DNA of 61,244 nt, from NCBI GenBank assembly GCA_016870115.1, contig VGCH01000016.1, positions 1 to 61,244 of the forward strand, written 5' to 3'. The notes beneath the pieces are model-generated. The model saw nothing but the letters and a program-made list of their open reading frames with translations, searched no databases and was not told the origin of the DNA. Numbering within the stretch: position 1 is the first letter of the stretch; each line of letters starts with the position of its first letter. Below are positions 9,085 to 60,847 of the stretch, piece after piece. Source of the stretch: Alphaproteobacteria bacterium. GTDB taxonomy: Bacteria; Pseudomonadota; Alphaproteobacteria; Reyranellales; Reyranellaceae. A program made the translations under genes and the position numbers.

Positions 9085-9966
9085 TCAAGCACCGAGGCGC
9101 GGCACGAAGCCGGCGCCCGCGCTCTCGATACGGCAATAGTGCGGTGCGCCGAAATGCGCCGGCAGCAGCACCGCGCCGCTGCCCGCACACTCCTCCAACA
9201 CGCGCCGACGGCTCCGTCGCGATTGCTCCGCATCGGCGCAGGCGAAGCTGCTCCATTCAGGGCGATAGACCTGGATCATGTGGTGCAGGATGTCACCGCA
9301 GAACAGTGCGTGGGAACCCTTCGACCGGCAATGAATCGCCACGGTTCCGGGCGTGTGGCCCGGAGCCGGCTGGACCGAGAAATGCTCGTCGATTTCGGCG
9401 GCGCCGGCCACGAGCTGGCCGAGCCCCGCCTCGATCACCGGCAGGACGGAGTCGCGAAACGCGCCGTAGTTCGCGGGCCCCCGCGCCGGGTCGCGATCGA
9501 CCGCGAGGTGATGGTTGTATTCCTCGTGCGAAAACACATAGCGCGCGTTTGGGAACGTCGGCACCCAGCGACCATTGTCGAGCCGCGTGTTCCAGCCGAC
9601 GTGATCGACATGCAGGTGGGTGCACATCACCATATGGATATCGGCCGGCGACACGCCGGCGTCTCGCAGGCGCTCCAGGTAGGGCCACTCCTTCTCGTGC
9701 CATTGCGGGCGAACGGCACGCGGCTTGTGATTGCCCACGCAGGCGTCGATCAGAACGTTCTTGCCACCAATCTTGATCAGCCAGCTATGCATGCTGAGCT
9801 TCAGCATGCCGCTGACCGGATCGAAATGGTCGGGCACCATCCAGCCCCTGTGGCGCTCCAGCTCGGCAGGGTCCCAGTCGGGGAAGAACCGCCTGGCGTC
9901 GAAGTTGGGCTCGTAGCTCTCCTCGACCCGCGCCACGCGCGCCCCGCCGATGCGCAGTTCCGTCAT
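9085..9966 (-). CDS. MBL-fold metallo-hydrolase (paralogue 1)
   Basis: 293 residues of the metallo-beta-lactamase fold. The dinuclear zinc motif H-L-H-V-D-H is at residues 117-122. Further ligands are in APGHTPG and the Asp of ALFCGDILHH, with LLPAHF near the C-terminus. The family includes lactonases and other hydrolases of cyclic esters. It is first gene of an operon with NIPSNAP and a TTT receptor. It is clearly paralogous to the gene at 49639: both share MCTHLHVDHVGWNT and the GDI-HH-IQVY-P-WSS stretch. No signal peptide, so cytosolic. Substrate unknown. Confidence 0.88.
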   Translation of the reverse strand: MTELRIGGARVARVEESYEPNFDARRFFPDWDPAELERHRGWMVPDHFDPVSGMLKLSMHSWLIKIGGKNVLIDACVGNHKPRAVRPQWHEKEWPYLERLRDAGVSPADIHMVMCTHLHVDHVGWNTRLDNGRWVPTFPNARYVFSHEEYNHHLAVDRDPARGPANYGAFRDSVLPVIEAGLGQLVAGAAEIDEHFSVQPAPGHTPGTVAIHCRSKGSHALFCGDILHHMIQVYRPEWSSFACADAEQSRRSRRRVLEECAGSGAVLLPAHFGAPHYCRIESAGAGFVPRLGA

Positions 9967-35304: not shown

Positions 35305-35430
35305 TAGAGCGGAATGGGATCGGGTGGAACCGCATGCGGTTTCGCTTGATCCCACGCGCGCGCGATATCGGTGTGTGGTGCAGGAGGCACGATGCGTTCA
35401 GCTGATTCCAGCTGAACGCATAGTGCTCTA
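35305..35430 (+). repeat. 126-bp double-hairpin repeat, copy 1
   Basis: Bounded by TAGAGC and GCTCTA. Hairpin A (35316-35353) has 38 bases: all 19 positions pair as 15 Watson-Crick and 4 G-T pairs, so it is sound as RNA of this strand but not of the other. Hairpin B has arms ATGCGTTCAGCTG (35392-35404) and its exact complement (35409-35421) around ATTC, extended by GCAC/GTGC. About 84 percent identical (106 of 126 by hand) to copy 2 at 59005-59130, which is in the opposite orientation. Confidence 0.9.
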
Positions 35431-35907
35431 GGGGAGGAAGCCGAGCGGGAGCCGCGTGGTGGACTTGATCTCCTCCATCGCGAACATGGACGTGACGTCC
35501 GAGAGCTCCACTTTGGCGATCAGGCGCTTGTAGAACTCGTCGTAGGCCGCGATATCCGGGAGCGCGAGGCGGATCAGATAGTCGATCTCGCCGCTCATGC
35601 GATAGCAATCCATCACTTCCGGAAACGACGCGATGGCGCGGGCGAAACGCTGAAGCCAGGCAGCATTGTGCTGGCTGGTCCGGACCGCTACGAAAACCGT
35701 CACCCCGGCATTCAGCGCCCGGCGATCCAGCAGCGCTACCCGGGCGCGGATCACACCGGCCTTCTCCATGCGCTGCACGCGCCGCCAACAGGGCGTGCTC
35801 GACAGTCCGACCTCGCGGGCCAACACGGCCAGCGGCAGGTCGGCATCGCGCTGCAGGCAATCGAGAATCTTGCGGTCGAAGGAATCTAGGGAAATTTTTT
35901 CGGACAT
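35428..35907 (-). CDS. Lrp/AsnC-family transcriptional regulator
   Basis: 159 residues. N-terminal winged HTH (DSFDRKILDCLQRDADLPLAVLAREVGLSSTPCWRRVQRMEKAGVI by position 55, recognition helix at SSTPCWRRVQ) and a C-terminal RAM ligand domain (FPEVMDCYRMSGEIDYLIRL, SDVTSMFAMEEIKST). It regulates amino acid or keto acid metabolism as an octamer. The only clear regulator in the window; the 2-hydroxyacid dehydrogenase across the repeat is a possible target. Its TAG stop lies inside repeat copy 1, so the last codons were probably set by the repeat insertion. Confidence 0.93.
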   Translation of the reverse strand: MSEKISLDSFDRKILDCLQRDADLPLAVLAREVGLSSTPCWRRVQRMEKAGVIRARVALLDRRALNAGVTVFVAVRTSQHNAAWLQRFARAIASFPEVMDCYRMSGEIDYLIRLALPDIAAYDEFYKRLIAKVELSDVTSMFAMEEIKSTTRLPLGFLP

Positions 35908-49638: not shown

Positions 49639-50523
49639 ATGACCGTCCGCCGCATTGGCAACGCCACCATCGAGAAGGTCGAGGAGCTCTGTGCCGCCGG
49701 GTTCCGGCCCAACCGCATGTTCCCCAAATTCGACCAAGCGGCCTTCGATGCCCAGAAGCACTGGATGGTTCCGGTGCATGTCGAGGCGGGCTCCGACCGG
49801 CTGGTCGGATCGGTCCATACCTGGGTCGTGAAGACCGGCCGCCACACCATCCTGATCGACACCTGCCTCGGCAACCACAAGCAGCGCCACAACGCGGCGT
49901 GGAACAACCTCGACACGCCGTTCCTGAACCGTCTGCGCGCCTGCGTTTGCCCGCCGGAGTCCGTTGATTTTGTGATGTGCACCCATCTGCATGTCGATCA
50001 TGTCGGCTGGAACACGAAGATGGAGAATGGCCGCTGGGTGCCCACCTTCCCCAACGCCAAGTATCTGTTCGCGCAGCGGGAGTACGCGCACTGGGAAGCC
50101 GAGCGCAAAACCAAGGGCGATGGTGTGGTGAACGACGGTTCGTTCGACGATTCGGTCCTGCCGATCGTGGAGGCCGGCCGCGCGGTCATGATCGAAAGCG
50201 ATCATCAGCCCGACCCAATGCTCACGATCAAGGACTATCCCGGCCACACGCCGGGTTCCATTGCCATCAATCTCGCGGGCGGCGGCCATCAAGCGTGCTT
50301 TTCGGGCGACATCATGCATCACCCGATCCAGGTCTATCATCCCGACTGGTCGAGCCAATTCTGCTGGGATGCCGAGATGTCGGCGGTCAGTCGCCGCAAG
50401 CTCCTGGAGGACTGCGTCGAGGCGAACGCGCTTCTCTGTCCGGCCCACTTCCCCGGCGCCAACGCGGGCTACATCCGGCCCGAGCGGGACGCATTCCGTA
50501 TCGAGTGGGACGAGCAGTCGTGA
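49639..50523 (+). CDS. MBL-fold metallo-hydrolase (paralogue 2)
   Basis: 294 residues. Zinc motif H116-L-H118-V-D120-H121 (MCTHLHVDHVGWNT), later KDYPGHTPGSIAIN, Asp in ACFSGDIMHHP and His in LLCPAHFPG. Paralogue of the gene at 9085 with the same zinc-binding and GDI-HH-IQVY-P-WSS segments and similar length. Probably a lactonase-type hydrolase. Starts 13 bases after the alcohol dehydrogenase gene and overlaps the SMP-30 start (GTGA). Confidence 0.9.
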   Translation: MTVRRIGNATIEKVEELCAAGFRPNRMFPKFDQAAFDAQKHWMVPVHVEAGSDRLVGSVHTWVVKTGRHTILIDTCLGNHKQRHNAAWNNLDTPFLNRLRACVCPPESVDFVMCTHLHVDHVGWNTKMENGRWVPTFPNAKYLFAQREYAHWEAERKTKGDGVVNDGSFDDSVLPIVEAGRAVMIESDHQPDPMLTIKDYPGHTPGSIAINLAGGGHQACFSGDIMHHPIQVYHPDWSSQFCWDAEMSAVSRRKLLEDCVEANALLCPAHFPGANAGYIRPERDAFRIEWDEQS

Positions 50524-57826: not shown

Positions 57827-58957
57827 TCAGCGCCGCCCCAGCGTGTACTCGCGCTTCTCCAGCCACCAGCCATATTCCGGTGGCCACATCTCGAAGTCGC
57901 GATCGCATCCCAGCGCCTGCGCGGCATGGACCGGCCAGAACGGCTCGTAGAGCGCCTGACGTCCGATCGCGATCAGGTCCGCGTCACCCGCCTGAAGGAT
58001 CGCCTCGGCCTGCGGCCCGTCGAGGATCAGTCCGACGGCCATGGTCGCGATGCCAGCCGCGCGCTTGACCTCGGCGGCGAACGGAACCTGGAAGCCGAGA
58101 CCGCGCTTCACGCCGGCTGCGGTCGCCGCGCCCGCGATGCCACCGGAGGAGCAATCGACCACGTCTACCCCGAGCGCCTTCAGCTCCTGCGCGAACGCCA
58201 CGGTGTCCGGCACGTCCCAGCCGCCGCCGCCATCGACCGCCGATACGCGCACGAAGAGCGGCTTGTGCGACGGCCAGGCCGCGCGAACCGCACGCGCCAC
58301 GGCAAGCGGGAAGCGCATCCGGCCGGCGCGATCGCCGCCATAGAGATCGTTGCGTGTGTTGCTGAGCGGCGAGAGAAACTGCGCCAGCAGATAGCCGTGG
58401 GCGGCGTGGATCTCGAGGACGTCGTAGCCCGCCGCATCGGCGCGACGCGCCGCGGCGGCGAACTTGGCCACCAACCCCTCGATCTCCTCGACCGACAGCG
58501 CCCGCGGCACCAACCAGCCGTCTGCGGCAGGCTTGTCGGTCGGTCCGACGACCTCCCACTTCTTCCAGCCGGCGCCGTCGGGCCCAAACTGGCCACGCTT
58601 GTCGAACACGCGGGCGGTCGAGCCCTTTCGGCCGGAATGGGTGATCTGGGTCGCCGCGAGCGCGCCTTCCTGATGGATGAACCGGGTGAGCCGACGGTGG
58701 CTCTCGACCTGGCCGTCGTCCCACAGGCCTAGATCGCCCTGCGTTACCCGCCCGCGCGGTTCGACCGCGCAATTCTCCGTGAACACGATGCCGAACTTCC
58801 CCAGCGCGAACTTCCCGAGATGGACCAGATGGAAGTCGTTCACCACCCCGTCGGTGGCGCGGAACTGCACCATCGGCGAGACCACGGCGCGGTTAGGCGC
58901 GACGACCCCACGCAAGGTCAGGGGCGTGAAAAGCAGCGGTTTGGACAAGACGGCCAT
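57827..58957 (-). CDS. Old-yellow-enzyme NADH:flavin oxidoreductase
   Basis: 376 residues from the ATG at 58957; a GGAGG sits unusually close to it, so 58981 or the TTG at 58948 are alternatives. FMN TIM barrel: LFTPLTLRGVVAPNRAVVSPMVQF, ITHSGRKGS, GYDVLEIHAAHGYLLAQFLSPLSNTRNDLYGGDRAGRMRFPLAV (H-A-H and R-x-D-x-Y-G-G), VGLILDGPQAEAIL, DADLIAIGRQALYEPFWP. Reduces enones or opens rings. First gene of the unit with CoA-transferase and hydroxylase; divergent from the amidohydrolase across repeat copy 2. Confidence 0.9.
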   Translation of the reverse strand: MAVLSKPLLFTPLTLRGVVAPNRAVVSPMVQFRATDGVVNDFHLVHLGKFALGKFGIVFTENCAVEPRGRVTQGDLGLWDDGQVESHRRLTRFIHQEGALAATQITHSGRKGSTARVFDKRGQFGPDGAGWKKWEVVGPTDKPAADGWLVPRALSVEEIEGLVAKFAAAARRADAAGYDVLEIHAAHGYLLAQFLSPLSNTRNDLYGGDRAGRMRFPLAVARAVRAAWPSHKPLFVRVSAVDGGGGWDVPDTVAFAQELKALGVDVVDCSSGGIAGAATAAGVKRGLGFQVPFAAEVKRAAGIATMAVGLILDGPQAEAILQAGDADLIAIGRQALYEPFWPVHAAQALGCDRDFEMWPPEYGWWLEKREYTLGRR

Positions 58958-59004
58958 TCCTCCAACGAGAGAGCCGACCATAGACCGGGGCGGCTCGGCG
59001 CGCC

Positions 59005-59130
59005 TAGAGCACTCTAAGTTCAGTTGGAATCAACTGAACTCAGAGTGCCTCCGGCAACTCACACCGATAGTGCACGCGAATGGGATCAGGTGGAACCGCA
59101 TGCGGTTCCACCTGATCCCATTCCGCTCTA
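59005..59130 (-). repeat. 126-bp double-hairpin repeat, copy 2
   Basis: Same element as copy 1 at 35305 but inverted. Hairpin A (59078-59123) is a perfect 46-bp palindrome. Hairpin B (59009-59048) has arms of 17 bp plus one mismatch around GAAT. Ends are TAGAGC and GCTCTA. It fills most of the gap between the OYE and amidohydrolase genes, and its right end runs into the amidohydrolase -10 candidate. Confidence 0.9.
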
Positions 59131-59134
59131 TGCT
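59129..59134 (+). promoter_or_regulatory. Candidate -10 for a leaderless amidohydrolase mRNA
   Basis: TATGCT ends six bases (GTTTGA) before ATG 59141; the first two bases are the last two of repeat copy 2. No ribosome site is seen. Confidence 0.4.
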
Positions 59135-59140
59135 GTTTGA

Positions 59141-60847
59141 ATGTTCGACCTCGTCATCCGAAACGGAACCGTGATCGATGGCAGCGGTGCGCCGCGCCGT
59201 CATGCCGATGTTGCAGTGCAGGATGGCCGCATCGCGGCTGTCGGCTCGAACCTGGGACAGGCAAGACGAACGGTCGACGCCGCAGGCCGGCTTGTCGTAC
59301 CGGGCTTCGTCGACATCCACACGCACTATGACGGCCAGGCGACCTGGGATCCGTTCGTGACGCCCTCGTCGTGGCATGGCGTCACGACGACCGTGTTCGG
59401 CAATTGCGGCGTCGGCTTCGCGCCGGTCCGGCCCGGCCAGTCCGGCTACCTCATCAACCTGATGGAGGGCGTCGAGGATATTCCCGGCAGCGTTCTGTCG
59501 GAGGGCGTGAGCTTCGCGTGGGAGTCGTTTCCGCAGTATCTCGACGCCCTCGCCTCGATGAACCGCGCTGTCGACGTCGCAGCGCAACTGCCTCACGGCG
59601 CGCTTCGCTTCTACGTCATGGGTGATCGCGGCGCGGATCATGCGGTAGTGCCGACCGACGCGGAGATCGAGGAGATGGCACGGTTGGCGGAGCAGGCGCT
59701 GCGGGCCGGAGCGCTCGGCGTCACGACCTCGCGCACGACCAAGCATCGCGCCCGCGACGGCCGCTACACGCCCTCGCTCAGTGCCCGCGAGGTGGAGCTG
59801 TTCGGCATCGCGCGCGGCATGCGGCGCGCCGGAACGGGCGTCCTGCAGGTCAACTCGGACTTCGGACCGGGCGAGTTCGAGGCGATGGCCGCCGCGGCGG
59901 AGATCGCCGGGCGACCGCTGTCGTGCCTGCTGGTGCAGGTGGACGCCGCGCCCGATCTCTGGCGCGAGACGCTGGGCCAGATCCACGGCGTGCGGCGGGC
60001 CGGGCGGGCCGCCAATGCCCAGGTCGGCTCGCGTCCGATCGGGGTCCTGATGGGACTGGAGACGACCGTACACCCGTTCGTGGCGAGCCCGGTGTGGCGC
60101 GAGATCTCCGACCTCGCGCCGGCCGCCCGCTTCGCACGACTGCGTGACGATGCGGCCCTGCGGGCACGACTGATCGCCTCGCCGCCGTCCACCTCACCGC
60201 GCGCTGCTATGACGGACGCGCTGCATCGCATGTACGCGATCGGCGATCGACCTGACTACGAACCTGATCCGACAAACTCGATCGCGGCCCGCGCGCAGCG
60301 GGAAGGTCGCGCGCCGCGCGAACTCGCGCTTGAGGAGATGATGGCGCACGACGGCAAGGGCCTGTTGCTGCTGCCGTTCGAGAACTACTCGGGCGGGAAC
60401 CTCGACGTGGTGCGCGAGATGATCGCCGACGACGCGACGGTGCTAGGCGTGGCTGACGGCGGCGCGCATGTTGGCACCATCTGCGACGCGAGCTCGCCGA
60501 CCTCGTTGCTGACGCATTGGGGCCGCGACCGCACGCGCGGTCCGGGCCTGTCGCTGGAGTTTCTGGTCGCCAAGCAAACGCGCGGCACCGCGCTCGCCTA
60601 TGGCCTCGCCGATCGCGGTTTGCTGGCGCCGGGCCATCGCGCCGACATCGCGGTGATCGACTTCGACGCACTGGCGCTCGCGCGCCCCGAGGTGGTGTAC
60701 GACCTGCCGGCCGGCGGCCGGCGCCTGGTGCAGCACGCGCGCGGCTACGCCCATGTGTTCGTGGCAGGGGTCGAGACTCTGCGCGACGACGCCGCCACCG
60801 GCGAGCGGCCCGGTCGGCTGGTGCGCGGTCCTCAGACCGTCATGTGA
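59141..60847 (+). CDS. N-acyl-D-amino-acid deacylase-like amidohydrolase
   Basis: 568 residues. Metal-dependent amidohydrolase: small beta-domain (DLVIRNGTVIDGSGAPRR), H60-x-H62 in FVDIHTHYDGQ, TTVFGNCGVGFAPVRPG, ARFARLRDD, and C-terminal GVADGGAHVGTICDASS (Asp), GLADRGLLAPGHRADIAVIDFD. Matches the D-aminoacylase/dihydroorotase-like group, which hydrolyses N-acyl-D-amino acids. Cytosolic. Start looks leaderless. It ends in a 16-base overlap with urtE on the other strand. Confidence 0.9.
   Translation: MFDLVIRNGTVIDGSGAPRRHADVAVQDGRIAAVGSNLGQARRTVDAAGRLVVPGFVDIHTHYDGQATWDPFVTPSSWHGVTTTVFGNCGVGFAPVRPGQSGYLINLMEGVEDIPGSVLSEGVSFAWESFPQYLDALASMNRAVDVAAQLPHGALRFYVMGDRGADHAVVPTDAEIEEMARLAEQALRAGALGVTTSRTTKHRARDGRYTPSLSAREVELFGIARGMRRAGTGVLQVNSDFGPGEFEAMAAAAEIAGRPLSCLLVQVDAAPDLWRETLGQIHGVRRAGRAANAQVGSRPIGVLMGLETTVHPFVASPVWREISDLAPAARFARLRDDAALRARLIASPPSTSPRAAMTDALHRMYAIGDRPDYEPDPTNSIAARAQREGRAPRELALEEMMAHDGKGLLLLPFENYSGGNLDVVREMIADDATVLGVADGGAHVGTICDASSPTSLLTHWGRDRTRGPGLSLEFLVAKQTRGTALAYGLADRGLLAPGHRADIAVIDFDALALARPEVVYDLPAGGRRLVQHARGYAHVFVAGVETLRDDAATGERPGRLVRGPQTVM

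Follow-up and report, generated by a model that had tools for sequence, protein, structure and literature searches.

The 61,244-nt stretch of DNA analysed here, referred to as the window, contains the same 126-bp unit twice, and the question raised by this pair is whether its paired arms are maintained as a folded RNA or as mobile DNA. Copy 1 lies at 35305-35430 on the plus strand and copy 2 at 59005-59130 on the minus strand, mutually inverted, with 106 of 126 positions identical (84%) and the termini TAGAGC...GCTCTA on both, as described in an earlier note on this sequence. The unit is composed of two hairpins of 21 and 18 stem pairs and a linker of ~29 nt, and it folds much more stably than shuffled sequences do (z from -5.6 to -12.1 over both strands of both window copies). 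Hairpin A of copy 1 (35312-35357, plus strand; element positions 8-53) resembles an IS630 right end inverted on itself and hairpin B (35387-35426, plus strand; element positions 83-122) an IS630 left end inverted on itself. Their counterparts in copy 2 are found at 59078-59123 and 59009-59048 on the minus strand. The tip of hairpin B carries a GANTC, the CcrM-type site, which in copy 1 is GATTC at 35404-35408 (plus strand; positions 23-27 from the B end) and in the copy 2 sequence is located at 59027-59031 (minus strand). Taken together, the observations set out below indicate that the repeat is very probably a non-autonomous MITE moved in trans by transposases of the IS630/Tc1-mariner type. 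The window holds a further inverted repeat of 119 nt with 80% identity (9517-9635 and 49967-50085, with 9226-9297 and 50305-50376 also related), which possibly reflects two related genes in opposite orientation.

The insertion sites are defined by relatives in which they are empty. All 14 relatives compared for copy 1 have just one CTAG at its site, where it forms the stop codon of an AsnC/Lrp-type gene, and all 11 compared for copy 2 have just one CCTAT, which lies upstream of an amidohydrolase gene. These single sites show that TA is duplicated on insertion, and the duplicates are placed at 35305-35306 (A end) and 35429-35430 (B end) for copy 1 and at 59005-59006 (B end) and 59129-59130 (A end) for copy 2, the 126 bp including the TA at either end. 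Several copies of a second genome, G020 (among them L081, L060, L041 and L092), likewise correspond to a single TA at the matching sites of genome G064; the exact G020 sites are read from G064, the genus-level alignment at L066 and L037 being too diverged. Insertion thus occurs at TA with duplication of the TA, mostly within CTAG, and the flanks have the form C-TA...TA-G in 86 of the 113 copies with intact ends. CTAG is strongly under-represented in the window, with 24 occurrences against ~184 expected from base composition. Copy 2 is flanked by divergent genes for an oxidoreductase (57827-58981, minus strand) and an amidohydrolase (59141-60847, plus strand) and sits within a CCTAT box (region 59115-59150) that is conserved across all relatives examined, just upstream of the amidohydrolase start; the insertion may have divided a promoter.

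Copy 1 has a minus-strand gene on either side, and its terminal TAG (35428-35430, minus strand) serves as stop codon for the AsnC/Lrp-type gene at 35428-35907 (minus strand), the same stop as in the empty CTAG of the relatives. Where CTAG holds a stop codon the element ends restore TAG and the protein is unchanged; G064 already has the TAG stop at the sites of L041, L080 and L098, so the insertion left the protein end as it was. With genes called by a simple codon-usage script, the element-terminal TAG is the stop in 89 of the 156 gene 3' ends that face a copy, 10 copies supply the stop codon to both neighbouring genes, and the 110 classified copies include 47 between convergent genes and 48 in tandem contexts. 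Insertion exactly at a TAG stop that is then restored illustrates how elements of this sort can multiply at little cost. A mobile element since retained between convergent genes, either to terminate transcription in both directions or to protect mRNA 3' ends, would also account for the 47 convergent copies and the 10 copies that end both genes, and the pneumococcal RUP repeats are over-represented between convergent genes in the same way (PMC3049150). However, CTAG targeting together with loss of damaging insertions explains the position of the copies, the sites are not common to relatives, and the tandem copies are as numerous as the convergent ones, which makes such a role unlikely as the main account; it does not compete with an origin as a MITE.

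The repeat is a genome-wide family. In the genome of the window (3.56 Mb, a draft of 59 contigs) there are at least about 12 near-full copies, far more than chance would give, as well as fragments, a count in which one locus is doubled (L008/L016 at the end of contig C31 and L010/L017 at the start of contig C21). These two entries represent the same tandem copy at two contig ends with few differences, and are either an assembly overlap or strain variants. A tandem partial copy in this genome is joined through a shared TA. The relatives that carry the repeat are Reyranellaceae, and a covariance model trained on 28 copies is positive in 27 of 75 genomes of this family, several of them with 46 copies or more, and also picks up weaker relatives in 12 genomes elsewhere in the class. 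Divergence differs between genomes: the many copies of G028 share ~70-83% identity with the consensus, and in G020 one query matches at least 40 copies at ~93-100%, which indicates recent spread. No Rfam family matches the repeat, and a distant blastn search of plasmid records gave no match to the consensus. Two G020 copies 1.6 kb apart were considered as the ends of a transposon and rejected, the gene between them being an ordinary solute-binding-protein-like gene and no transposase.

Subfamilies with different arms (GGAATGGG, GGAATGCG, GGAATCCG, GATTTCCG and others) are all still palindromic. An older and more decayed double-hairpin subfamily in the window genome (L054, L059, L065 and L014, on contigs C31, C22, C11 and C25) has the same layout with different arms (tip GGAACCGCTCACGCGGTTCC; arm TTTCCGATCCGGCTGA). 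Single-hairpin forms and copies that lack most of hairpin A or the hairpin-B tip also occur (L019, L104, L105, L106; L070, L073, L107; L038, L044, L102), so that the unit is modular and its palindromes are prone to deletion. In the relatives L256 and L258 each hairpin has its own full TAGAGC...GCTCTA ends and the two are joined by a short AT-rich linker, an arrangement that suggests the 126-bp form arose from two adjacent single-hairpin elements.

The compensatory changes in the arms of hairpin B reported earlier for the window pair (C-G for T-A) are real and extend through the family. Among 28 diverse copies, standard pairs make up 97.3% of the stem cells, 27 of 39 stem pairs have changed on both sides, and the covariation score is 0.498 compared with 0.167 for shuffled alignments. 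Further copies exist and their arm changes are compensated, yet compensation alone does not prove an RNA, since a DNA palindrome yields the same covariation signal as a structured RNA. The two can be told apart by the departures from pairing, because selection on a transcript should leave more G-U than A-C departures on the transcribed strand. The earlier note had described every departure in hairpin A of copy 1 as a G-U pair in the plus-strand RNA; this holds for the four in the inner stem (pairs 18/43, 19/42, 21/40 and 23/38), but the full stem (8-53) adds an A-G (9/52) and an A-C (10/51). Hairpin B of the same copy has a G-A departure at 87/118. As copy 1 lies between minus-strand genes, its plus-strand G-U pairs sit opposite the strand of those genes. 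The 131 copies together contain 40 distinct G-U and 30 distinct A-C departures (p = 0.28), and on the transcribed strand of the tandem-gene contexts tested the counts are 12 G-U and 20 A-C, with no excess of G-U.

The loops point in the same direction. The hairpin-A loop occurs in both orientations (GCTCGC in 41 copies and GCGAGC in 15; GCGTGC in 9 and GCACGC in 5; GCTTGC in 5 and GCAAGC in 5), as expected from exchange or re-templating of the arms at the DNA level. No flipped hairpin-B loop is seen among the common forms; such a flip would shift GANTC by one base, and the exact spacing of GANTC therefore seems to be selected. The outer arms of A and B co-vary within single genomes, as a need for both to be recognised by a single transposase would predict, with shared descent contributing too. 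A structured RNA element (an attenuator, mRNA stabiliser or sRNA) under selection on its folded transcript would fit the strong covariation and the very stable folds, but the departure counts, the strand test, the loops that occur both ways round, the differing insertion sites of relatives and the absence of an Rfam family make it highly improbable. Selection on a folded RNA, which the earlier note had proposed, is not supported by the departures, the strand test or the gene context of copy 1, although a weak RNA effect may exist at some sites. That strong compensatory arm change is possible in mobile DNA without signs of RNA selection is a caution for covariation-based RNA discovery.

The interpretation as a MITE is carried further by the ends of IS630-type elements in Reyranellaceae. 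Elements of 1026-1071 bp are present in G027, G018, G084, G083, G073, G015, G095 and G016, 12 of them with both ends, and those of G028 are broken by contig boundaries. They have TAGAGC at both ends and mostly lie in CTAG, and the encoded proteins in G027 have HTH and DDE_3 domains. IS630 is known to prefer TA within CTAG (Tenzen and Ohtsubo 1991, as cited in PMC2170065). After TAGAGC, up to 15 of 20 bases are alike between IS and element ends in G028, beyond the level of shuffled ends. GANTC is present at positions 23-27 in 15 of 15 IS630 left ends (13 GAATC and 2 GAGTC) and in 0 of 14 right ends. Of the non-redundant MITE ends, 81 of 101 B ends have GANTC at 23-27 and 91 A ends have GAACC, and GANTC falls within the hairpin-B tip in 106 of 131 copies, against a background density of 2.19 GANTC per kb. 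By this placement the B end is the counterpart of the IS left end, and the A end that of the IS right end. The element and the Reyranellaceae IS630 thus have one end plan in common, with TAGAGC at 1-6 and GANTC at 23-27 at the B/left end and absent from the A/right end. A second GANTC occurs at positions 34-36 in 13 of the 15 IS630 left ends (L127, L126, L331 and others).

A matching IS and the MITE are found together in G028, G073, G083 and G095. Their presence does not coincide throughout, the MITE occurring without an IS match in G086 and G064 and the IS without the MITE in G015, G016 and G018. No intact matching IS630 was found in G020. A mobilising transposase, for which the earlier note suggested a search, can be assigned to a likely family, IS630-type, in related genomes, but no matching one was found in the draft genome of the window, whose sole IS630 has other ends (TAGAGACTGACA). 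The earlier suggestion of an intergenic repeat family in the style of REP/RPE elements is borne out as to the genome-wide family and the compensated arms, but the repeat shows no link to a REP transposase and is instead a CIR-like, IS630-type MITE. Movement of a REP/BIME-like element on single-stranded hairpins by a RAYT (Y1) transposase, which would suit the two palindromes per unit and the presence of Y1 transposase genes in 9 of the 16 Reyranellaceae genomes examined for them (G020 and G028 included), is contradicted by the TA duplication, unexpected for Y1 transposition, and by the IS630-like ends, and with no RAYT in the window genome and no element flanking the Y1 loci of G020 and G028 it is scarcely credible.

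In the proposed mechanism for the MITE an IS630 transposase would bind the element ends and move the unit by cut and paste, each hairpin representing one IS end that may have been doubled by inversion. The arms would be kept matched as DNA, by template switching between arms and by selection for ends that the transposase recognises, with no selection on RNA. The GANTC at a fixed position from the end is likely a site of DNA methylation, and in the least certain step it would let CcrM methylation couple transposition to DNA replication. Dam sites tie the transposition of IS10 and IS50 to DNA replication. Class-wide matches in other alphaproteobacterial families are also double hairpins that end in TAG; 6 of 11 such matches have GANTC at an offset of 23 and another 3 have it at 25-26, which suggests that all are of a single widespread kind. 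By analogy with Dam in IS10 and IS50, it is tentatively proposed, at somewhat less than even confidence, that the alphaproteobacterial two-arm (CIR-like) repeats are widespread IS630-type MITEs in which the conserved GANTC at 23-27 acts as a CcrM switch, gating the transposase by methylation and tying transposition to replication.

The closest known repeats, by description, are the CIR (CcrM-associated intergenic repeats) of Caulobacter, Brucella and relatives, which are described as ~110 bp with two stem-loops and a linker, GANTC at one tip and TA termini (PMC2229807; Chen and Shapiro 2003). The present element shares with them the two arms and linker, a similar size (126 compared with ~110 bp), an intergenic location in alphaproteobacteria, a GANTC that tips one of the two stem-loops and TA at both termini. 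In the account of PMC2229807 the CIR are without terminal repeats, their target duplication is not known, their mobility is unexplained and the methylation site is without an assigned role, whereas the present element has TIRs, a CTAG target, TA duplication and ends that match IS630. The filled and empty sites, the CTAG target and the IS630 ends with a fixed GANTC provide a concrete, testable answer to how repeats built like CIR can be mobile. RIME1 (Rhizobium intergenic mosaic element), also alphaproteobacterial and intergenic, is ~108 bp with two large palindromes, and by this description is similar in build.

Among MITEs of other taxa, the 107-bp RUP of S. pneumoniae, for which IS630-Spn1 is the proposed mover (PMC2229807, PMC3049150), is likewise short and non-coding with IS630-like ends, TA duplication and over-representation between convergent genes, whereas the present element is GC-rich with two tandem palindromes, a CTAG/stop-codon target and a GANTC site. 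ERIC (127 bp) and Correia/NEMIS have TA termini, TA duplication and stable palindromic transcripts (PMC2229807); they are similar in size, TA termini and TA duplication, but belong to other taxa and form one end-to-end stem in place of two arms with a linker. The IS630/Tc1-mariner elements (IS630, ISY100) have the same TA target and duplication (PMC2170065), and those of Reyranellaceae the same TAGAGC ends and CTAG sites, but encode a DDE transposase, and the repeat is without a transposase gene. The element therefore belongs to a known kind, that of the CIR elements and of MITEs of the RUP/ERIC type, and what is new is the link between CIR, compared here by description, IS630 and GANTC.
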